Part shown: positions 1-8,005 of the stretch, in pieces
Layout: each line of letters opens with the position of its first letter
How positions within the stretch are numbered: position 1 is the first letter of the stretch
Source: Candidatus Omnitrophota bacterium
GTDB taxonomy: Bacteria; Omnitrophota; Koll11; Pluralincolimonadales; Pluralincolimonadaceae
Assembly: GCA_022709465.1 (NCBI GenBank)
Contig: JAKLIT010000060.1
Location: forward strand, 1 to 8,005
Length of the DNA: 8,005 nt
Direction of reading: 5' to 3'
Position numbers and translations under genes: made by a program
The notes under the pieces: generated by a model
Databases searched by the model: none
Told to the model about the DNA's origin: nothing
Seen by the model: only the letters and a program-made list of their open reading frames with translations

Positions 1-75
1 GGCTGCGCCCAAGGCCAGCGTCGATGCCGCGGCCGTGCCGTCAGAGTTGACGGTGAAGGTATCGGCGGTCGTGCC
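1..75 (-). repeat. GTTSxTFTVNS module, copy 3, cut by window edge (residues 1282-1306)
   Basis: Encodes GTTADTFTVNSDGTAAASTL and then LGAA at the window edge. The start of this module shows that the repetitive region continues beyond the left boundary and that the fibre protein is considerably longer than what is visible. Confidence 0.6.
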
Positions 76-3000
76 GGTAAGCGCGCTTGCCGCCGCGGAG
101 ACGGAACCGCTTAACGTGAGGTTGCCGTCCGTGTCGAGATAGGCGACATTCGCCTCGTCGCTGTCGCGCCAGACCTGGATATTGGTAGAGCCGTCGTTGG
201 TCGTGCCTTTGACAATAAGGTGGCCGAGCGCCGGGGTGCCGTCAAAATCGGTCGTACCTATGCCGACGGCTCCGCCGGGCCTCAATATGAACCTCTGGTA
301 GTAAGCCGCCCCGTCATATTCCTCTATTATAAAATCATTGACGAAACCCGCGGCCTTACGGTGCTGGACATTCCATGATTTGTCACCCGCTTCATTAAGC
401 AAATTGACGTATGAATATGCGAAAGCGTCCCCGGAACCCGTTATAATCAGGCTTGCCGCTCCTCCGGTATTATTGATCCTCGCGGTCTCCACGACATCAA
501 GGTTATACTGAGGGCTCGCCGTCCCAATTCCCACCCTGTTGCTGTTCGCATCTATAGAGAGCGTATTCGCGTCGAAGTTCAGTGCGTCCACGCCGCCTCC
601 GAGGGTAACGGCGGTATCCGCCGGCATGTTCGTCGTCAGGACGGTCCCCGTAGCATCGGGGAACGTGAAGACGTGGTCAGAGGTCTGGCCCGCCGAACTG
701 ACCGTGACACTGTTGCCGTCGGAGTTGACTTCGAAAGTATCGTTCGTGGTGCCTGTTATAGCTGTGCTTCCCCCGACAGCACCGAACGAAAGGGTGCCCG
801 AACCGTTTGTCTTAAGGACATGGCCGTCAGATCCGTCAACGCTTGGCAACGTCCAGATCAGGTCGTTCCCTATCGCGTCGGGTGCCTTGAAACCGACATA
901 GTTAGTGCCGCCCGCGGCCAGTTCGCTGAACCTCAGCTCGAGCGTATTGCCCGCGGCAGTCCCGTGGGGGCTAAAAGCCAAGCTGGTACCGCCGATCAGC
1001 GCCCTTGTCGCCGGGTCATTGTCCGCCGCTCCGGCGGTTGACGCTTTCGCGGTCTGGAATATTATCGCTGACGCTCCGGTGCCTGTCGCAGTCCCTGCCT
1101 TCAGGATGAGGTTGCCGCCGTTGAGGTTACTCCCGGTTGCATACGCGCCGCCCGCCTGCACAGTCATGTCATTTCCTGCTTGTCCCGCCGACTGATGGCG
1201 TTCCATGCCTATTGTCCTGCCTGACTGGCCGTCCAGGGATAGGATATAGCTCGGTTCGAGTACGGTCGGGTTGCCGTCGAAGGTCCCACCGATACCGATA
1301 TTTCCGCCCGCCGGTTGCAGTACCAGGTTGGTCGCTGCGGCGGCACTGCTCCATCCTCCCACCCTCGTATAATCCGTGCCGGCGACATCCTTCGTCTGTA
1401 TATACATATACGGTCCTACTGCCGCGGCATAGAATGTGCTCTCGGAACCGGTCACGACTTTTAATGTGCCCACTACTTCGAGCTGTGCGCCGGGGTTGCC
1501 CGTGTTGATGCCGACCCTGTTATTGGCAGCGTCTATCGTAAGCGTATCGGCATCGAAATTAAGCGCATTTATCGCGTCATTCAATGTGACGGCGACGGTC
1601 GCGTCTGACATATCGGTAGTGAGCACTTTTCCGGACGCGTTCGGAAAAGTATAATCATGGTCCGACGTCTGCCCGGACGAATCTATCGTCACGCTGTTGC
1701 CGTCCGTATTGACTTCCCAGGTATCCGAGGTCGTGCCTGCGGCTGAAAGCGCACCTGATATAGTGCCCGTGACATTAAGATCGCCGGAGATATCGACCCT
1801 GTCTGAGGCGGCATTAAGCCGCATGAGCTCCGCCAACACGCCGGCTTCGGTAATGCTGAATACCATATCGGCGTTTTCCGAGCCCTGGGTCACCGTCGTC
1901 AGGACCGTATCTATCGAGCCGTGTTTCTGCAGGTTGCCCGCGTCTTCAACGTAATACGCGAGCCCCGTGCCTATGCCGGCCTGCGGCGCGTTCGTCGTCG
2001 AATGCTGTATCTTCAATATGTCGCTTACGGCATTATCGACCACGTCCTCGTTGAGCAGCGCCATGCCCGCGGTAGGCGTCAGGGTGACGAGGTCGACATT
2101 GGCGGACGTGTTCGTGAACTTGAATGTATCCCACTCCTTGAACTGCATGATGTTATCCGACTGCGAGATATATATGCTGTGCGCGTAATCTGGGTTGCCG
2201 GACGCGGAACTTATGACCGCGAACGACTTCTTGTCGTACATCGTGATGTCGTCATAATGATAGGCGATGCCCGTATTCTCGAAAGCGTTCTCGACGAACA
2301 TCGATCCCGCCGCCGTCGCCTTTGCGGGCGCGGGAGCGGTCGCGTCGCGCACTATTACGGCGCTCGCTGGCTGGAGGTTCAGGTTACCGGCCGGAGTTGT
2401 TATGAACGGGTTGCCGCCATTGCCGAATGTCAGCGTGGGTGTCGCGGAGGTGTTATCGGTGTCGATAGTGAACGTGTCAGATGACGTGCCTGCTATAGAC
2501 GCGCTCGCGGCATAGAGCGTGCCGTCGACCTCGAGGTCGTTCTGGATATACGCGTCGCCCGCGCCGGCTACCGCGGCTCCCGCGTCACTGCCTACTACCA
2601 GGTTCGCTACCGGGGTAGTGTCCCCGAGCCCGAGATAACCGTTAGCGTCAAGAGTAAGCCGCCTTGTGCCGAACATTGATATGAAATATCCGCTGCCGGG
2701 GACAACGGGAGAATAACCGGCTTCGGAACTTAGGGTATCGGCGACATAATTCCTGGTTGTCGACGTATTGGCTCCCACCGAAGCATCGATGCGTATAGCG
2801 CCGCTATTCAGCCCTTCGAATTTCGCGACCTCTATAGTTCCCGTGGGATCGTAAACATGCAGCTGGTTTCCGGGGGCAGCTGCCCCTATTCCGACACGGT
2901 TATTCTGGGCATCGATAGACAGCGTATCGGCATCGAAATTCAGCGAATCTACGGCATCGTTTAGCGTGACATCCACCGTCTGGGTGGACAGATCCAGGAT

Positions 3001-3918
3001 GCCGTCATTTATATCCACCGTCCCGCCGTTCGAATCTATCACAAGGTTGCCGGATACGGTCGTCACTTGCCCGTTGCTTCCGCCGGAACCTCCGAGGCGC
3101 AAGGTGGTCAGCGCGTTGTCGTTATTGGAATTCACCGTGAACGTATGGCTTGTAGTGCCGTTTATCGCGGCGCCGGAACCCGTTATCGTGCCGACCGCGG
3201 TCACATTTCCGGCCGAGTCGACGTTAAACATCGACACTCCTCCCAGCTGCAGGTCAAACAGGAAATTCGCAGTCGCGGGGCCGCCCGCGGCCGTCTGCGT
3301 CAGGTTAAGCCGTATGCCGGTATAATTTCCCGCGGCTTTATTGATCGTCGCCGCATAATCGTACGCGATCTCATTCCCGGCAGCCGCACTCTTCGTGACA
3401 GCCCCGGTAAGGCTGTATCCCGATGCGGGGTTCAACGCGAGGTTCGCGTTAACGCCGCTTATTATATCGGCATACAGGTAGCGCCATGCCAGGCCGGAGG
3501 ATCCGAGGTCATAAGTGGAATCAACTGAGGGTATCAGCGATGACCCGAAGTAACCGGTCACGGTGACCGTGTCAGATGTCGTATCGCCAAGATACATCGC
3601 GGAATCAAAATAAGAAACACCGTCTACCTCGAAGATCCCCGTTACATGCAAGTCATCGTTGGTAGTAGCGTGGGAATTAGACCCTGTGGCGGTGCCGATC
3701 TGGGTATTTCCCCCGCTTCCGGGTGCTATGACCAGGTCCTCGTTCGCGGCAGTCGTTATATCGACCGGCACGCCGTCGAACTCAAGCTGTCCGGCATAGG
3801 CCTCGCCCGCCGCGCCCGGCGGCGCAAGCATGAACCAGCTGGCGAAAAAGTATGCCAACAATAAGATAAATACCGGAACGGACGCCCTGGCGGACACATT
3901 TTTCTTTAATGTAAGCAT
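1..3918 (-). CDS. Giant secreted repetitive tail-fibre-like surface protein (3' end outside window)
   Basis: 1306 codons without a stop, running off the left edge. The Sec signal is MLTLKK, a hydrophobic core at about 13-32, and cleavage probably after AYA (42). The rest is a mosaic of short Gly/Thr/Asn/Asp-rich beta modules. They include LEFDGVPVDI (45-54), DSTYDLGSSGLAWRYLYA (133-150), NYTGIRLNLTQTA (198-210) with a following GGVSMFNVDSAGNV stretch, and three NFDADTL..NRVGIGT-type segments (327-355, 787-815, 1114-1142). Others are AGIGTGLAYYVEDAGNLQKH (647-666), LNGGNLILKAGTATGTG (932-948), YVGFKAPDAIGNDLIWTLPS (1007-1026) and LKTNGSGTLSFG (1035-1046). These motifs are familiar from tail-fibre-like and giant bacterial surface proteins. 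No Cys is seen, and Asp/Glu far outnumber the roughly 45 Lys+Arg. Likely an elongated extracellular or cell-surface fibre, perhaps trimeric. Such proteins often end in a peptidase S74-type intramolecular chaperone or an anchor, which would lie outside the window. No enzymatic motif was seen. Exported status is well supported; the precise function is unknown. Confidence 0.85.
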   Translation of the reverse strand, partial: MLTLKKNVSARASVPVFILLLAYFFASWFMLAPPGAAGEAYAGQLEFDGVPVDITTAANEDLVIAPGSGGNTQIGTATGSNSHATTNDDLHVTGIFEVDGVSYFDSAMYLGDTTSDTVTVTGYFGSSLIPSVDSTYDLGSSGLAWRYLYADIISGVNANLALNPASGYSLTGAVTKSAAAGNEIAYDYAATINKAAGNYTGIRLNLTQTAAGGPATANFLFDLQLGGVSMFNVDSAGNVTAVGTITGSGAAINGTTSHTFTVNSNNDNALTTLRLGGSGGSNGQVTTVSGNLVIDSNGGTVDINDGILDLSTQTVDVTLNDAVDSLNFDADTLSIDAQNNRVGIGAAAPGNQLHVYDPTGTIEVAKFEGLNSGAIRIDASVGANTSTTRNYVADTLSSEAGYSPVVPGSGYFISMFGTRRLTLDANGYLGLGDTTPVANLVVGSDAGAAVAGAGDAYIQNDLEVDGTLYAASASIAGTSSDTFTIDTDNTSATPTLTFGNGGNPFITTPAGNLNLQPASAVIVRDATAPAPAKATAAGSMFVENAFENTGIAYHYDDITMYDKKSFAVISSASGNPDYAHSIYISQSDNIMQFKEWDTFKFTNTSANVDLVTLTPTAGMALLNEDVVDNAVSDILKIQHSTTNAPQAGIGTGLAYYVEDAGNLQKHGSIDTVLTTVTQGSENADMVFSITEAGVLAELMRLNAASDRVDISGDLNVTGTISGALSAAGTTSDTWEVNTDGNSVTIDSSGQTSDHDYTFPNASGKVLTTDMSDATVAVTLNDAINALNFDADTLTIDAANNRVGINTGNPGAQLEVVGTLKVVTGSESTFYAAAVGPYMYIQTKDVAGTDYTRVGGWSSAAAATNLVLQPAGGNIGIGGTFDGNPTVLEPSYILSLDGQSGRTIGMERHQSAGQAGNDMTVQAGGAYATGSNLNGGNLILKAGTATGTGASAIIFQTAKASTAGAADNDPATRALIGGTSLAFSPHGTAAGNTLELRFSELAAGGTNYVGFKAPDAIGNDLIWTLPSVDGSDGHVLKTNGSGTLSFGAVGGSTAITGTTNDTFEVNSDGNSVTVSSAGQTSDHVFTFPDATGTVLTTNMPADTAVTLGGGVDALNFDANTLSIDANSNRVGIGTASPQYNLDVVETARINNTGGAASLIITGSGDAFAYSYVNLLNEAGDKSWNVQHRKAAGFVNDFIIEEYDGAAYYQRFILRPGGAVGIGTTDFDGTPALGHLIVKGTTNDGSTNIQVWRDSDEANVAYLDTDGNLTLSGSVSAAASALTGTTADTFTVNSDGTAAASTLALGAA
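493..753 (-). repeat. Long NRVGIGT-type module, copy 3 (residues 1056-1142)
   Basis: Begins GTTNDTFEVNSDGNSVTVSS, passes through FTFPDATGTVLTT and VDALNFDANTLSID, and ends NRVGIGTASPQYNLDV. Same order of elements as copy 2, about 240 residues further toward the C-terminus. The sequence between the copies is not repeated. Confidence 0.85.
1474..1737 (-). repeat. Long NRVGIGT-type module, copy 2 (residues 728-815)
   Basis: Begins GTTSDTWEVNTDGNSVTIDS, passes through YTFPNASGKVLTT and TLNDAINALNFDADTL, and ends NNRVGINTGNPGAQLEV. About two-thirds of residues match copy 3 when aligned by eye, with a single-residue length difference. It is a tandem-related internal repeat of the fibre protein. 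Confidence 0.85.
2368..2490 (-). repeat. GTTSxTFTVNS...GNL module, copy 2 (residues 477-517)
   Basis: Encodes GTSSDTFTIDTDN, TPTLTFGNGGNPF and TTPAGNLNLQP. Its spacing matches the copy at 3031-3159 almost residue for residue, but here no NRVGIGT segment follows. A less repetitive stretch (about residues 520-620) comes next. Confidence 0.65.
2854..2994 (-). repeat. NRVGIGT-type module, copy 1 (residues 309-355)
   Basis: Encodes DLSTQTVDVTLNDAVDSL followed by NFDADTLSIDAQNNRVGIGA and ends QLHV. It matches the second half of the copies at 1474-1737 and 493-753. Twenty bases around its NFDADTL part (2921-2940) are identical to 1541-1560, so similarity extends to DNA. The upstream GTTSDTxEVN half is replaced here by the other module type (3031-3159). 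Confidence 0.8.
3031..3159 (-). repeat. GTTSxTFTVNS...GNL module, copy 1 (residues 254-296)
   Basis: Encodes GTTSHTFTVNSNN, then LTTLRLGGSGG and TTVSGNLVIDS. It shares the TFTV, TL..G, GG and GNL positions with the copy at 2368-2490. It is immediately followed by the first NRVGIGT module, so it occupies the place of the first half of the longer copies. Confidence 0.65.
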
Positions 3919-3925
3919 TTCAAAT

Positions 3926-3934
3926 TCCTCCTTT
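3926..3934 (-). promoter_or_regulatory. Shine-Dalgarno for the giant repetitive protein gene
   Basis: The minus strand reads AAAGGAGGA, with eight bases between GGAGG and the ATG at 3918. It is the strongest ribosome binding site in the window and sits in the only intergenic gap (22 bp) before this gene. It fixes the start even though the frame is open further upstream. Confidence 0.85.
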
Positions 3935-3940
3935 AGATTA

Positions 3941-4390
3941 TTATTCCAATGTGAACATGAAAGATTCTTCACCTGTCACTGTCTCCTCGGTATTCTTGAA
4001 CATCCCTTTTAGGGTTATTGTGCCGGCACCGTTAAGCACAACGGTACCGTCCTTTTTTATATACAACGCCTCATCAGATGGAGACGCCGGGGTGATCTCC
4101 CCGTATATGAAATTCCCGGTAGAAAATATCGACGGGTTGCCTCCTCCGACAGTGACAGACTTGGCCTCGAATGTCTCCCCCGCGGTGGCGGAAGACCCTT
4201 CGAGGTCTATTGTGACGTCATCTACGGACGACGGCGTTCCCTCGGGATTCCAGTTATTCGGATCGGCCCAGGTCGAAGCATCGCCGGCGGCGATCCAGTT
4301 CTTCTCGGCGCCGTATGCCTGCCCCTGGCCTGCGGCCGTAAAAACAGCCGCGCAAACCAGGGATATTAGCGTGCCCAACACATTCTTCAT
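3941..4390 (-). CDS. Small Sec-exported beta-rich protein of unknown function
   Basis: 149 residues. The N-terminus has Lys2 and a hydrophobic core (VLGTLISLVCAAVFTAA), with plausible signal peptidase I sites after GQA (25) or YGA (28). There is no lipobox and no prepilin Gly-Phe/Glu motif. The mature part starts with a Trp/Asn-Trp motif (NWIAAGDASTWADPNNW, then a GTP turn and DDVTID, to about residue 62). This resembles the W..NW..G.P...D.V.I start seen in many beta-solenoid or autotransporter-associated secreted proteins. The rest alternates strands and turns (KSVTVGGG, GTVVLNGAGTITLKGMF). The mature chain has no Cys. The ATG overlaps the stop of the gspJ-like gene as ATGA and has no ribosome binding site of its own, so its expression is coupled to the minor pilin. 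The large fibre gene starts 22 bp after its stop. I do not recognise a named family. Candidate roles are a fibre cap, adaptor or co-secreted partner (inference only). Confidence 0.8.
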   Translation of the reverse strand: MKNVLGTLISLVCAAVFTAAGQGQAYGAEKNWIAAGDASTWADPNNWNPEGTPSSVDDVTIDLEGSSATAGETFEAKSVTVGGGNPSIFSTGNFIYGEITPASPSDEALYIKKDGTVVLNGAGTITLKGMFKNTEETVTGEESFMFTLE

Positions 4391-5616
4391 CTTATGAATA
4401 ACGCGGCCCCCGATATGTCCATCTTCGTGACCTTAAGCTCCACTTCGCCTTCGCACAATACTATATTGTCGGTATCTTCATCATAGTCATAATCATACAT
4501 CCCGTTCGGGCCGAGCGAGAGCAGGTTGAGCCCCGCCTCTACGCTCGTGTTCGGCTTGTCGCTGAAGACCGTCTTTCCGGATGGATATTCTATCGTATAA
4601 GACGATATCTTCGGGGCCGCAAGGCCCGAGCGGCTGAAGTTGACCGTCAGCCTCCATTCGCTTCCTCTCGACGGCACGGCTGCCAATTGTATGACATCCT
4701 TATCATCTATACCGGAAAGGTTTGAAAGGAAAAATGTCCTTATGTGCCGGGAATCGGGAATAAGGAACCTCATTCCTTCCTTAACGGCAAATGCGCCGCC
4801 CTTCGCGGGGCTGTTCCTCAAACTGACGAAACTTATCAGGTCCTTCTTCCTGCCGGCTGTCTTATCGCCGGGACCCGGCGGCAAGCTTGCCTCGGCGGAT
4901 ATCTCTATGCCGCCGATGAACTGCAGCTTATCGTCCGGGACATCGCCTCCTTCAGAGATGCTGTTGTTGGTATTGTCAAAATATTTGAGGGAGAAGGATG
5001 TTATCTTTATGCCGAACGGGTTCTTTGATATCTCGGCCCGGCCCGCGGCATCCTCCACGAACAGCAGGCCGTCTTCTTTGGCCCACTTGTATCTCGTGAC
5101 CGTATCGGGGTTTTTCCCGGGATCGGGATGGAATGTGAAACGCAGCGAACTTCCCGGGGCTACCTTTGAGGCAAGCTGGACTTTGTTCAGCTCTTCCTTC
5201 CTGCCCCAATCAAGCATAGAAACCGCTATCGGATAATAAGCGTCGGTATCCGGCGTGCGCGCCTCCGCTATAGGGATACTCGCACCCGGCCTTATCTGCC
5301 TGTCCAGCTCGTACACGTTAAGCCCGCTCTGGGCCATATGGCTTGAATCGGTCCGCGGGTATACGACCTCAACCTCGTCCGAATACGCCTTCACTATCTC
5401 GAGTGAGTCCCGCAGTCCGCTCCTGTCCGGCGTGCCCTCTACGAGTTCCTGCATGACCTGCGAAAGGACCTTCTGTAACATCAGCTCGTCCTTCATATAC
5501 GCCCAGCTTTGCAGCGCGGTCGCCACGCTCCAGTATATAGCGCCCGTTATGAATACGGCGATAAGTACCGCTATAAGCAATTCTACTAACGTGAATCCGG
5601 ACTGCCTTTTATCCAC
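4387..5616 (-). CDS. GspJ/PilW-like minor pseudopilin with a C-terminal extension
   Basis: 409-residue prepilin using a GTG start. The leader MDKRQSG precedes FTLVELLIAVLIAVFITGAI, with Phe +1, Glu +5 and a stem to about residue 30. The helix continues as WAYMKDELMLQKVLSQVMQE (residues 38-57). Residues about 80-268 follow the GspJ/PilW plan: LRFTFH (158-163), a strand near YKWAKEDGLLFVED (176-189), ITSFSLKYFD (205-214), and a closing ISFVSLRN (261-268), where this family normally ends. Here about 140 more residues follow. They are strand-rich and include an acidic run DYDYDEDTDN (374-383) and one Cys (388). Common GspJ is about 200 residues, so this is roughly double. The stop shares four bases (ATGA) with the start of the next gene, linking its translation to the secreted 149-residue protein. 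Pilin class is firm; the extension's function is unknown. Confidence 0.85.
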   Translation of the reverse strand: MDKRQSGFTLVELLIAVLIAVFITGAIYWSVATALQSWAYMKDELMLQKVLSQVMQELVEGTPDRSGLRDSLEIVKAYSDEVEVVYPRTDSSHMAQSGLNVYELDRQIRPGASIPIAEARTPDTDAYYPIAVSMLDWGRKEELNKVQLASKVAPGSSLRFTFHPDPGKNPDTVTRYKWAKEDGLLFVEDAAGRAEISKNPFGIKITSFSLKYFDNTNNSISEGGDVPDDKLQFIGGIEISAEASLPPGPGDKTAGRKKDLISFVSLRNSPAKGGAFAVKEGMRFLIPDSRHIRTFFLSNLSGIDDKDVIQLAAVPSRGSEWRLTVNFSRSGLAAPKISSYTIEYPSGKTVFSDKPNTSVEAGLNLLSLGPNGMYDYDYDEDTDNIVLCEGEVELKVTKMDISGAALFIR

Positions 5617-6005
5617 GTCATGTCCTCGAGTAAGGTAACGAGTTCTACCACGGGGGCCTTATCATTGTTTACATTAAATACCGATACCTTAACCTTTAAG
5701 GGTTCGGAGGCTGTATCTATATCCGTATATATCCTCCATCTTCTCCCGTTCAAATCTATCGGCGGATCTTCGGCCGGAGGGTAGTACGTGCTGCCTATCT
5801 CCCTGAACTGTTTGGTCGTGAAATCGAGGTTCTTCACGCGCTCCATCTGCCATTTGGCCAGGTTAAGCGCCGTTATAGTCTCCCCCGTCATCGAGGAAGA
5901 CGCAAGCGTATGCGAGAAGAGCTGCATCATCGGCACGAAAAGCGCCGCGAGCACAGCCAGCGTGATGAGCACTTCCGTATATGTGAAGCCATTACGGGCT
6001 TTCAT
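5586..6005 (-). CDS. GspI/PilV-like minor pseudopilin
   Basis: 139-residue prepilin. The leader MKARNG is followed by FTYTEVLITLAVLAALFVPM. Cleavage is expected after Gly6, with Phe +1 and Glu +5. After the stem comes ALNLAKWQMERVKNLDF (residues 46-62), matching the family pattern of Ala-rich helix, a conserved Met-Glu and a basic residue seen in GspI and PilV. The C-terminal part (RRWRIYTDID, LKVKVSVF, VVELVTLL) gives alternating strands typical of the pilin beta sheet. There is no good ribosome binding site before the ATG at 6005, and the upstream stop is only 3 bp away, so translation probably depends on coupling. Its last 31 bp overlap the start of the next gene. Length is close to GspI (about 125). 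In GspI/J/K tip complexes it would pair with the GspJ-like and GspK-like neighbours; that is inferred from order. Confidence 0.85.
   Translation of the reverse strand: MKARNGFTYTEVLITLAVLAALFVPMMQLFSHTLASSSMTGETITALNLAKWQMERVKNLDFTTKQFREIGSTYYPPAEDPPIDLNGRRWRIYTDIDTASEPLKVKVSVFNVNNDKAPVVELVTLLEDMTWIKGSPDSR
5623..5627 (-). promoter_or_regulatory. Shine-Dalgarno that decides the GTG start of the gspJ-like gene
   Basis: The minus strand reads GAGGA six bases before GTG at 5616-5614. The ATG at 5621-5619 just upstream is in the frame of the gspI-like gene, not this one. GTG gives the leader MDKRQSG directly before the pilin motif, the expected length for a prepilin leader. Confidence 0.7.
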
Positions 6006-6008
6006 GCT

Positions 6009-6380
6009 TTAGAATGAGTTGTATTTCAACTGTATCGTCCTCGTTATCCCGCCGACCTTGCCGGTCGACGACAACAGCGATTGCTTGAAATCCAGTTTTA
6101 CCTCATATGTCCCGTCGCCGAGGGAGGTGGGGTTCACGAAATATTCCTCACTGCCTATGATTATCGCCTGGGATTTCAGCAGGAATACCGCCTGGCTGAT
6201 ACCGGCTTCCGCCAGGTACAGCGCTTTCGCGCGGTTCACCTCATACTGGTTCGTCAGCGCGATAGACGACAATAGCGCGACAAGGCTCGCGCCGATAAGG
6301 CTGACGGTCAATAGGACGATCAGTACGCCGAATAATACAGCGCCCCGCCTGTTACCATTCGTTCGGCTTCTGCCCCGCAT
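6009..6380 (-). CDS. Short PilX/GspK-like minor pilin
   Basis: 123-residue protein with a basic N-terminus ending in NRRG, a hydrophobic stem AVLFGVLIVLLTVSLIGASL (residues 14-33), and then NRAKALYLAEAGISQAVFLL (residues 49-68). The AxxLAEAGI element is characteristic of PilX N-terminal and GspK-type minor pilins. If cleavage is after Gly13, position +5 is Gly rather than the near-universal Glu. Absence of Glu5 is a known feature of GspK, which caps the pseudopilus tip. It is far shorter than GspK (about 300 residues), lacking any room for GspK's large inserted globular domain, so PilX-like is the safer name. The start ATG at 6380 lies inside the end of the gspG-like gene and has a GGGGAAG sequence just before it. 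The next gene starts 3 bp after its stop. It likely primes pilus assembly with the two following minor pilins (inference). Confidence 0.8.
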   Translation of the reverse strand: MRGRSRTNGNRRGAVLFGVLIVLLTVSLIGASLVALLSSIALTNQYEVNRAKALYLAEAGISQAVFLLKSQAIIIGSEEYFVNPTSLGDGTYEVKLDFKQSLLSSTGKVGGITRTIQLKYNSF

Positions 6381-6801
6381 AGCTTCCCCATTTTGAGCTC
6401 AACGGCTCGGTGACGTTTACCACGACGTCCGCCTTGTCCGTTATATACGCCCAGCCGCCCTTGCCGGACGGCGAATCTCCGCTCGATATGTTCTCTATCG
6501 TGCTGAGGCCCTTCTTGCTCGTCACCAGCTCGGGCGGGATGCGGTCAAGGTAAGCACGTTTTACGCCCATATCGTCGTACTGCGCGGTCAACAGCTCATC
6601 GAGGGCGTCGGGATACCTGCCCTCCTTGGCCCTGAAGAGCGTGATCCTGGTCCTTATGGAACTGAGGTTGGTCTGTGTCGCGGCTATGCGCGCCTCGACG
6701 TCGAACCCTATGAAGTTGGGTATTATCGTCGTGGCAAGAATCGCGATTATCGTTATGACTATCAGTATCTCGATAAGGGTAAAACCTTTACGCTGCCTCA
6801 T
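6352..6801 (-). CDS. gspG: GspG-like major pseudopilin (type II secretion / type IV pilin-like)
   Basis: 149-residue prepilin, expected to be cleaved and N-methylated by a PilD/GspO peptidase and polymerised into the periplasmic pseudopilus. It has a short basic leader MRQRKG, then FTLIEILIVITIIAILATT. The cleavage site is after Gly6, Phe is +1 and Glu is +5, and the hydrophobic stem runs to about residue 33. The globular part begins with a helix (ATQTNLSSIRTRITLFRAKEG) and RYPDALDELL, both typical of GspG. It ends with a beta segment GGWAYITDKADVVVNV, the place of the family's C-terminal strand. Length matches GspG (about 140-150). The usual DPWG-type loop before that strand is not visible; YLDRIPPELV followed by a Ser/Gly-rich loop stands there instead. 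ATG is preceded by AAAGGAGAG. Ile in the stem is mostly ATA. The gene overlaps the next by 29 bp. Pilin class is certain; the role as major pseudopilin is inferred from length and order. Confidence 0.92.
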   Translation of the reverse strand: MRQRKGFTLIEILIVITIIAILATTIIPNFIGFDVEARIAATQTNLSSIRTRITLFRAKEGRYPDALDELLTAQYDDMGVKRAYLDRIPPELVTSKKGLSTIENISSGDSPSGKGGWAYITDKADVVVNVTEPLSSKWGSYAGQKPNEW

Positions 6802-6805
6802 ATTT

Positions 6806-6814
6806 CTCTCCTTT
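6806..6814 (-). promoter_or_regulatory. Shine-Dalgarno for the gspG-like gene
   Basis: The minus strand reads AAAGGAGAG a few bases before the ATG at 6801. It overlaps the stop codon of the upstream gspF-like gene, so the two genes are physically interlocked. This is a strong site, fitting a pseudopilin that must be made in larger amounts than its neighbours. Confidence 0.8.
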
Positions 6815-8005
6815 ACGCTTTTATTATCTTGATGAGGTTAAATATCGGCAAAAGCACCGAAAGGGCTATGAACGCCACTATCGCTCCCATAACCAGCAGC
6901 AGGAACGGCTCGAGCAGGCTCGTGAAATTGCGCAGCGTGTATTCGACCTCCGGCTCGTAGAACGAAGCCACCTCGGAGAACATCTCTTCGAGATGCCCCG
7001 ATTTCTCGCCGCTGCTTATCAGTTGTATCACCATAGGCGGGAATATGCCCGACGACCTGAAGGCCTCGGTCACCCCCTGCCCGACATTTACCCTGTTGCG
7101 AATATCTATGAATATCCTGCGAAGCACCGTGTTCGTTATAGTGTTCTCCACGACGGCCAGGCCTTCATGGAAAGGGACACCCGTCTTCGTGAGGGCGGCC
7201 ATCGCCCTGCTGAACCTCGATATCATGACCTTCAGGTATAGTTCGCCGAAAAGCGGCGACTTCAATATATAGCCGTCTATCCTGTACCTGCCTTCGGGGG
7301 TCGAGATATACCATTTGAGCCAGAACGCGAATAAGACAAGCCCGCCTGCCGCGAGGTACCAGTAATTCCTCAGGGCCCAACTGAGGCCCAATATGACCTT
7401 CGTGGGGGCCGGAAGCTTGGCCTGCGACGCCTCGAATATCGAAACGAAATTCGGAAGCACCGCCACGAGCACGAAAGTCACTACCGCCAGTGAGAGCCCT
7501 ATAAGCACGACCGGGTAGATAAGCGAGGACTGCACGCGCGACCTTATCTCGAGCTCGTCGGCTCCGAGCGAAGCGAGGCGCTCAAGGACATCGTCGAGCA
7601 ACCCGCCGGCTTCGCCTATCTTCACCATCGAGACGAAGAACCCGTCAAACACCTGCGGGTGTTTCGCGACGGATTTCGAGAAACTCATACCGCTCTGCAC
7701 GTCCTTCATGACCTGCTTTATTACGCCCCTGAGTTTCTGGTTCTTGACCTGTTCGGCCACGTTATCAAGGGATGAGGTGAGGGTGTTTCCCGTGCGCAGC
7801 AGCGTGGCAAGCTGCCTTGTGAAGACAATTATCTCCTGCCTGCTTATCCTTGAGAACGCCCTGGAATAGTATTCCTGCAAGCCGCCCGAGGACGCCGCCT
7901 GCGGCCTTATCTCTACGATGCTGTAACCGAGGTCCCTAAGGCCGGATGCGACTTCGTATTCGTTCCCGCTCTCGGCGGACCCGGTGACCAGCTGCCCGGA
8001 CTTGT
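6813..8005 (-). CDS. gspF: GspF/PilC-family inner-membrane platform protein of a type II secretion / type IV pilus machine (5' end outside window)
   Basis: Polytopic inner-membrane protein that, in this family, couples the cytoplasmic assembly ATPase to pilin extraction and polymerisation. The frame is open to the right edge, giving 396 visible residues. Family members are about 400, so only about ten N-terminal residues seem missing. The first visible residues (KSGQLVTGSAES) match the usual start of the family, and the TTG at 7880 is therefore only an internal codon. Two tandem T2SSF domains are visible, about residues 57-180 and 263-385, each with a helical repeat (FTRQLATLLRTG, then FSRAMAALTKTG) and a GE-containing loop (KIGEAGG, SSGEKSG). 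Hydrophobic spans lie near residues 163-190, 212-232 and 365-391. The stop (6813-6815) overlaps the ribosome binding site of the next gene, with 11 bp between the genes. Family assignment is firm. T2SS versus T4P use cannot be told from this protein alone. The partner ATPase gene is probably upstream, outside the window (inference). Confidence 0.95.
   Translation of the reverse strand, partial: KSGQLVTGSAESGNEYEVASGLRDLGYSIVEIRPQAASSGGLQEYYSRAFSRISRQEIIVFTRQLATLLRTGNTLTSSLDNVAEQVKNQKLRGVIKQVMKDVQSGMSFSKSVAKHPQVFDGFFVSMVKIGEAGGLLDDVLERLASLGADELEIRSRVQSSLIYPVVLIGLSLAVVTFVLVAVLPNFVSIFEASQAKLPAPTKVILGLSWALRNYWYLAAGGLVLFAFWLKWYISTPEGRYRIDGYILKSPLFGELYLKVMISRFSRAMAALTKTGVPFHEGLAVVENTITNTVLRRIFIDIRNRVNVGQGVTEAFRSSGIFPPMVIQLISSGEKSGHLEEMFSEVASFYEPEVEYTLRNFTSLLEPFLLLVMGAIVAFIALSVLLPIFNLIKIIKA

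Follow-up and report, generated by a model that had tools for sequence, protein, structure and literature searches.

Co-inheritance of a giant fibre-like protein with a type IV filament machine in Omnitrophota

What does a pilus-type machine do with a giant protein encoded at the end of its operon? This question is raised by a stretch of 8,005 nucleotides from a Candidatus Omnitrophota bacterium (contig JAKLIT010000060.1 of assembly GCA_022709465.1), which we call the window. It carries seven genes, all on the minus strand, in the order gspF, gspG, a pilX-like, a gspI-like and a gspJ-like gene, the gene of a small secreted protein, and that of a giant protein with the look of a fibre. A first-pass annotation had described a tightly packed gene run with gaps or overlaps of at most 31 bp, which agrees with the spacings that we measured from gspF to the giant gene (+11, −29, +3, −31, −4 and +22 bp, hence a range of −31 to +22 bp), and a last protein of more than 1300 residues, of which 1306 amino acids (aa) are indeed present before the window edge. 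The organism-named proteins closest to those of the window come from Omnitrophota metagenome-assembled genomes, and the full order from gspF to the giant gene recurs in locus L001 of genome G001, where the giant is complete (2889 aa).

Fibre and machine are co-inherited

Right behind its leader, the giant protein carries a module with 21 invariant columns that are common to the window, six genome loci and three proteins. We searched 384 Omnitrophota genomes for this N-terminal module and found it at E<1e-35 in 11 of them. All 11 are among the 16 genomes that hold one clade of GspF, and none of the 368 other genomes had it (Fisher p 7.5e-18, kinship uncorrected). This count excludes weaker matches (E 1.4e-12 to 9.5e-7) that occurred in another 11 genomes, none among the 16. 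The genome searches scored some first-look candidates per genome (e.g. up to four), and the presence counts given here are lower bounds. A GspF tree with 47 rows grouped the window with the fibre-linked machines having gspF and four other machines in a 13-row clade with support of 99/96; the rows include 20 other GspF genes drawn from five genomes plus G365 (6 in all) as a partial set of paralogs. The clade profile consisted of 12 rows, four of them found via the fibre. With it, 16 genomes reached at least 557 bits and the best of the rest had 542, a border that was set after the scores were seen. As a control, a 7-row GspF profile without the fibre-found rows was run on 51 local sequences, where ten untrained clade members scored 569-623 bits (the fibre-found rows 597-623), the machines of a sister class at most 533.5, and paralogs at most 418.

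The sister class was defined by gspJ. A gspJ profile, whose alignment took in 36 of 61 gspJ hits and the window's own sequence, matched 27 of the 384 genomes at E<=1e-15. Ten genomes formed clade 1 (E<=5e-145) and 16 formed the sister class, c2 (E 7e-82 to 1e-105); the 27th, G305, stands outside both, having no more than a partial gspJ at the end of a contig. In the tree, L060 (G305), marked c2, and L126 (contig C178 of G365), marked other, both lie inside the fibre clade. The c2 loci mostly read secretin-gspF-gspG-pilX-gspI-gspJ, in some cases followed by PilB, and neither the fibre module nor a stand-alone small protein was found in any of the 16 c2 genomes.

The fibre lies in one gene run with gspF in 8 of the 11 fibre genomes, in two gene orders. 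It follows gspJ and the small gene in the window, G001, G337 and, after inserted open reading frames (ORFs), G002; it follows the PilB gene of the same machine, directly or one ORF later, in G135, G199, G231, G323 and G222. In G365 the run gspI-gspJ-small-fibre occupies a 4.1-kb contig and the machine another contig, and in G198 the run fibre-DUF6701-gspJ-small is likewise on a different contig from the machine. In G216 the three parts are far apart on one 1.43-Mb contig: the fibre module lies at 153 kb, gspJ is found at 870 kb, and the machine, at 1.33 Mb, has no fibre beside it. The end of the operon is visible together with gspF in 10 clade genomes, 8 of which have the fibre. No module was detected in five clade genomes. 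In one of them, G040, the clade operon is followed by other genes with no fibre beside the machine, and in the other four (G173, G139, G305 and G367) the contig ends at or before the expected fibre place.

Taken together, these data show that fibre and machine are co-inherited and usually adjacent, and that their link survives a change of gene order. The first-pass annotation had gone further and proposed a machine dedicated to this fibre, a claim that pilin genes without a giant gene beside them would speak against. This outcome was seen in part: the fibre module is absent from the 16 c2 genomes, and the fibre-clade machines of G216 and G040 stand without an adjacent fibre. What stands of the proposal is co-inheritance (11 of 11 within the clade) and usual adjacency (8 of 11 in one run); strict dedication is rejected, given the G216 and G040 machines without an adjacent fibre and the c2 genomes without the module.

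The fibre, the neighbouring subunits and a second large protein

The N-terminal module is constant and the rest of the fibre is not. Over 15 fibres the module had a mean identity of 70% (105 pairs, lowest 48%), and residues ~260-960 had 30% (36 pairs from nine fibres), a value that a forced global alignment of repeats might nearly give. The open frames of the fibres range from 294 to 2906 aa, several being cut by contig ends. The part of the giant present in the window has no cysteine and consists of ~12% Gly, 13% Ala and 12% Thr. Identity between the window and L001 falls along the operon, from gspG (83%), pilX (82%), gspF (79%) and gspI (76%) to gspJ (67%), the small protein (58%) and the fibre (32%); judged from these comparisons, this is the pattern of a conserved machine with exposed parts. 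The constancy of the N-terminal module suggests a specific partner of the fibre.

Domain searches gave a mixed picture of the fibre body. Three stretches of the window fibre matched PHROG 5906, a phage family of unknown function (E 6e-11), and the C-terminus of the L001 fibre is an S74 chaperone domain (E 6e-10). No S74 domain was found in five other long relatives (P0072, P0077, P0078, P0080 and P0081), and PF13884 occurred in 4 of the 16 clade genomes, among which the G001 match was the one inspected; the window copy of the fibre is cut. S74 as a general feature of these fibres was rejected on these grounds, and S74-type trimerisation cannot be generalised to the fibres. The Pfam PilY1 domain was found neither in the partial window giant nor in the L001 giant nor in the same five relatives. 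As a side observation, P0077 bears the same N-module and is interrupted by an intein-splicing domain (PF14890, E 1e-21), which is unusual for a secreted repeat protein.

The features of the window are collected in Table 1. The giant starts with the ATG at 3918, preceded by AAGGAGG; that it and the small protein have signal peptides was judged by eye. A scan for terminator-like sites found none at the gspJ-small-giant junctions, with low power (7 sites vs 7.5 in shuffles). No FimU/GspH gene was recognised among the window genes.

Table 1. Features of the window, with coordinates and the evidence for each
Feature	Position	Strand	Evidence
GspF/PilC-type inner-membrane platform protein, 396 aa, 5′ end cut by window	6813..8003	-	PF00482 (T2SSF) E 3.1e-59
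GspG-like major pilin/pseudopilin, GFTLIEIL prepilin motif	6352..6801	-	N_methyl 5e-9, over cut-off
PilX-like minor pilin	6009..6380	-	PilX_N E 3.8e-5, 24.0 bits (cut-off 25.5)
GspI/PilV-like minor pilin	5586..6005	-	TIGR01707 E 1.4e-4, under cut-off; N_methyl also under cut-off
GspJ/PilW-like minor pilin, 409 aa	4387..5616	-	N_methyl over cut-off
Small secreted protein, 149 aa, 4-bp overlap with gspJ	3941..4390	-	homologs and co-occurrence with clade-1 gspJ
Giant fibre protein, first 1306 aa, 3′ end beyond window	1..3918	-	complete relative, 2889 aa, in L001
Conserved N-terminal module of the fibre, proposed docking module	3574..3807	-	21 invariant columns, 10 sequences

We further considered the subunits encoded next to the fibre. 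In a structural model of the GspJ-like protein (409 aa), a pilin core (~41-271) holds an inserted beta domain (~87-165) and is followed by a ConA/LamG-like C-terminal domain (~273-409). As modelled, the protein is a modular minor pilin with a pilin core fold, and the model suggests that it bears a lectin-like domain. Foldseek with this model returned no match at E<=0.001, and the re-alignment of its hits alone was informative.

The small protein has nine homologs besides itself, and the four with an organism name are all from Omnitrophota. Strong stand-alone matches were found in 10 of the 384 genomes, the same ten that hold clade-1 gspJ (10/10 vs 0/374); P0004 was omitted from the alignment. 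Its gene adjoins gspJ in 8 of these 10 genomes, is separated from it by short inserted ORFs in G002, and sits on a different contig in G199. We excluded seven weak matches (E 1.7e-11 to 8.6e-7), all within larger frames, from 6 additional genomes (G148, G165, G130, G131, G055 and G186). The frames around these weak matches are 848 to 6479 aa long, so the small protein may be a stand-alone version of a domain that giant proteins also use. Structure prediction yielded no fold for the small protein (AlphaFold2 predicted local distance difference test score 42).

Among the genes around these subunits, the ORFs between gspJ, small gene and fibre in G002 (L061, 16322-18431) have repeated PYSPLS/PYQGK-like tracts and include a four-helix 23S-IVP-like protein and a GxxExxY-like protein. 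In G216 (L038, 388-4035), a 1215-aa ORF with a weak FBPase-like region (under cut-off) and terminal fibre-type repeats lies upstream of DUF6701-gspJ-small. On contig C43 of G139 (L040), DUF6701-gspJ-small has a distant GspF and a PilB-like gene as neighbours, and the clade machine of this genome is on another contig, C18.

A second large protein accompanies the set. DUF6701 proteins, searched with a profile built from members near gspJ or the fibre, were found at E<=1e-147 in 13 of the 16 clade genomes (the G231 copy being truncated at the end of its contig) and in a single genome, G012, among the 368 others; 15 further matches in 11 genomes, all c2, were missing at least the N-terminal third. 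The gene precedes gspJ in G135 (with one short ORF between), G139, G173, G198, G199 and G216, follows the fibre in G001 and G231, and precedes PilB in G001, G002, G337, G305, G222 and G367. A search of the DUF6701 protein against plasmids found nothing, and NCBIfam gave no name for the two members tested. We take DUF6701 to be found in MshQ as well. As the set includes both this protein and a GspJ that bears a lectin-like domain, the fibre would be one of several surface parts. In the c2 locus L045 (G189, 14690-19930, minus strand), a 1746-aa protein with a DUF6701-like part lies directly before gspI-gspJ and is another giant partner of the same pilin pair.

The machine and the possible role of the fibre

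The class of the machine was judged from relatives that retain its other genes. Upstream of gspF in L039 (G337) lie genes for a ParA-like protein, PilM, PilN, PilO and a secretin. In the closest complete fibre locus (L001/L062 of G001), the fibre is followed by the DUF6701 protein and then by a PilB/GspE ATPase. PilM_2, PilN and PilO domains exceeded Pfam cut-offs in G337 and G040, as separate genes, and in G002, where PilM and PilN are fused. The fusion state varies inside the one machine clade: G337, G365 and G040 have two genes for PilM and PilN, where G002 (L061), G173 (L041) and G199 (L042) have one ORF with both domains.

The best-scoring model was PilQ for 4/4 secretins and PilB for 3/3 ATPases, above GspD and GspE of the type II secretion system (T2SS), respectively. 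PilQ gave 275.1, 270.6 and 247.8 bits for clade secretins and 256.3 for the sister class, all under the cut-off of 284.35; PilB gave 624.8 and 603.6 for clade ATPases and 643.0 for the sister class, all under 675.65. The GspD scores were 260.3, 262.1 and 225.9 in the clade and 253.7 in the sister-class locus L046 (cut-off 351.35, all under), and those of GspE were 602.1 and 590.5 in the clade, under the cut-off of 630.25, and 632.4 in L046, just over it. The MshL secretin model was not reached (157.8, 156.4, 166.4 and 141.9 bits vs a cut-off of 250.2), and an MshE-related cyclic di-GMP motif was over its cut-off in the ATPases. The T2SSM domain was just over cut-off on the PilO-like gene of G002 (29.1 of 27.8) and under it in G040. 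The window GspF, with its 5′ end cut, scored 354.2 bits against TIGR02120, under the cut-off of 424, and the window GspG scored 16.7 bits against T2SSG, under the cut-off of 21. PilT was over cut-off in 10/10 clade-1 gspJ genomes, which have several pilus systems each, and was not seen in the operon. In ten relatives we counted between 2 and 8 matches to secretins and between 6 and 18 to the GspF domain (about two per full protein); all of them had one PilT or more, and therefore several such machines per cell. On these profile scores, we class the machine as a type IV filament machine, like that of type IVa pili with T2SS traits, which lies between type IV pilus and T2SS. The T2SS label of the first-pass annotation is thus not established, as GspE, GspD and GspF remain under their cut-offs in the clade.

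Type IV filaments present large proteins at their tips. We tentatively favour, at somewhat under an even balance of belief, the view that the fibre, co-inherited with a type IV filament, serves at its tip as an effector or adhesin, in a role like that of PilY1, because of the identity gradient along the operon and the precedent of PilY1, which with minor pilins forms a priming and tip complex (PMC7541494). The window would then be the distal part of an Omnitrophota type IV filament operon. PilM/PilN, the PilO-like protein, the secretin, GspF/PilC and PilB would assemble the GspG-like pilin into a filament, with the PilX-, GspI- and GspJ-like minor pilins priming assembly. Of these, the GspJ-like one is predicted to carry the lectin-like domain. 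The small protein and the giant fibre would reach the periplasm by Sec. There the constant N-terminal module of the fibre may dock on the tip complex of minor pilins, for which the small protein could be an adaptor, and the growing filament would push the fibre through the secretin and show its variable distal part at the tip, where it may act as an adhesin. In a more specific version, which we regard as rather unlikely, the filament tip is a phage-like fibre whose constant module plugs into the lectin-bearing minor-pilin tip, perhaps via the small adaptor, and whose fast-changing distal part is swapped according to the target cell; such a fibre would serve some Omnitrophota as an attachment hook for partner cells and would unite type IV pili with giant surface proteins in a single device.

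The same genes could instead serve T2SS-like export, in which a pseudopilus drives the folded fibre, a favoured cargo comparable to SslE, out through the secretin, to be released into the medium or to the outer membrane; we consider this possible but doubtful. A fused PilM-PilN ORF is a GspL-like layout, and its presence in G002, G173 and G199 weighs against a tip role and raises the standing of export. On the other side are the preference of the ATPases for PilB over GspE and of the secretins for PilQ over GspD, the separate PilM and PilN genes of the three other genomes, and the bulky lectin-like minor pilin, which suggests display, not a piston.

It is less probable, and in our judgment unlikely, that the fibre acts independently as a surface adhesin or sheath protein, takes another outer-membrane route and owes only co-expression to the operon. 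The remote fibre of G216 and the separate contigs of G198 fit this explanation, as do the giant ORFs with adhesin domains that are common in the phylum (PMC10066038); its difficulty is that every fibre genome holds the one GspF clade, mostly with the fibre in its gene run, and that the constant N-terminal module argues for a specific partner. That the fibre is a phage tail-fibre or prophage gene lying beside the operon by chance is highly improbable and was rejected on genomic context: the PHROG 5906 stretches and the S74 end of one relative are set against a Sec-type leader, surrounding pilus genes and linkage in many genomes, and a scan of viral contigs, limited by being pattern-based, gave 36 N-module pattern matches, none confirmed.

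Relation to known systems

Omnitrophota are mostly uncultured and suspected of a host-dependent life, and type IV pili and giant ORFs have both been named as signs of symbiosis in the phylum, with no link between the two drawn in the parts of that source that concern them (PMC10066038). Our literature searches for a link between Omnitrophota type IV pili and giant proteins found nothing relevant beyond that paper. If the fibre is a tip effector, it would be one of a new kind, a giant protein that is inherited with one specific machine and combines repeats of the phage-fibre type with a conserved module for docking. It is a concrete, testable candidate for Omnitrophota cell attachment. The GspJ model further hints that, in a diderm phylum, a lectin-like domain can be borne by the subunit at the GspJ position.

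With S74 phage tail fibres, the giant protein shares the PHROG 5906 repeats, the S74 end of the L001 relative, and a constant N-terminus with a variable distal part; it differs in its Sec-type leader, its place in a pilus operon and the five other long relatives without S74. SslE, with the T2SS-beta of Escherichia coli, is likewise a surface protein whose gene neighbours a machine of the same superfamily (PMC3707838), but that gene lies upstream of the machine. We know of no pilus-like tip domain or fibre repeats in the SslE system. The modular minor pilin PilC of Streptococcus sanguinis has a lectin module, whereas the carrier here is GspJ-like, has an extra domain inserted in its core, and has a lectin-like domain that is predicted.

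The mannose-sensitive haemagglutinin (MSHA) pilus resembles the present system in the MshE-related motif of the ATPases and differs in the secretin, for which the scores here (142-166 bits) stand against an MshL cut-off of 250.2. To our knowledge, MSHA has no counterpart of the fibre. Its operon also has a large non-pilin adhesin candidate, MshQ, called a putative MSHA adhesin in PMC7096442. The PilY1 system differs in that the fibres scanned here had no PilY1 domain match and have fibre-type repeats of variable length, and in FimU/GspH, for which the window has no recognised gene; it agrees in having a PilM/PilN/PilO-secretin-PilC-PilB machine and a very large non-pilin exported protein encoded beside the minor-pilin genes.

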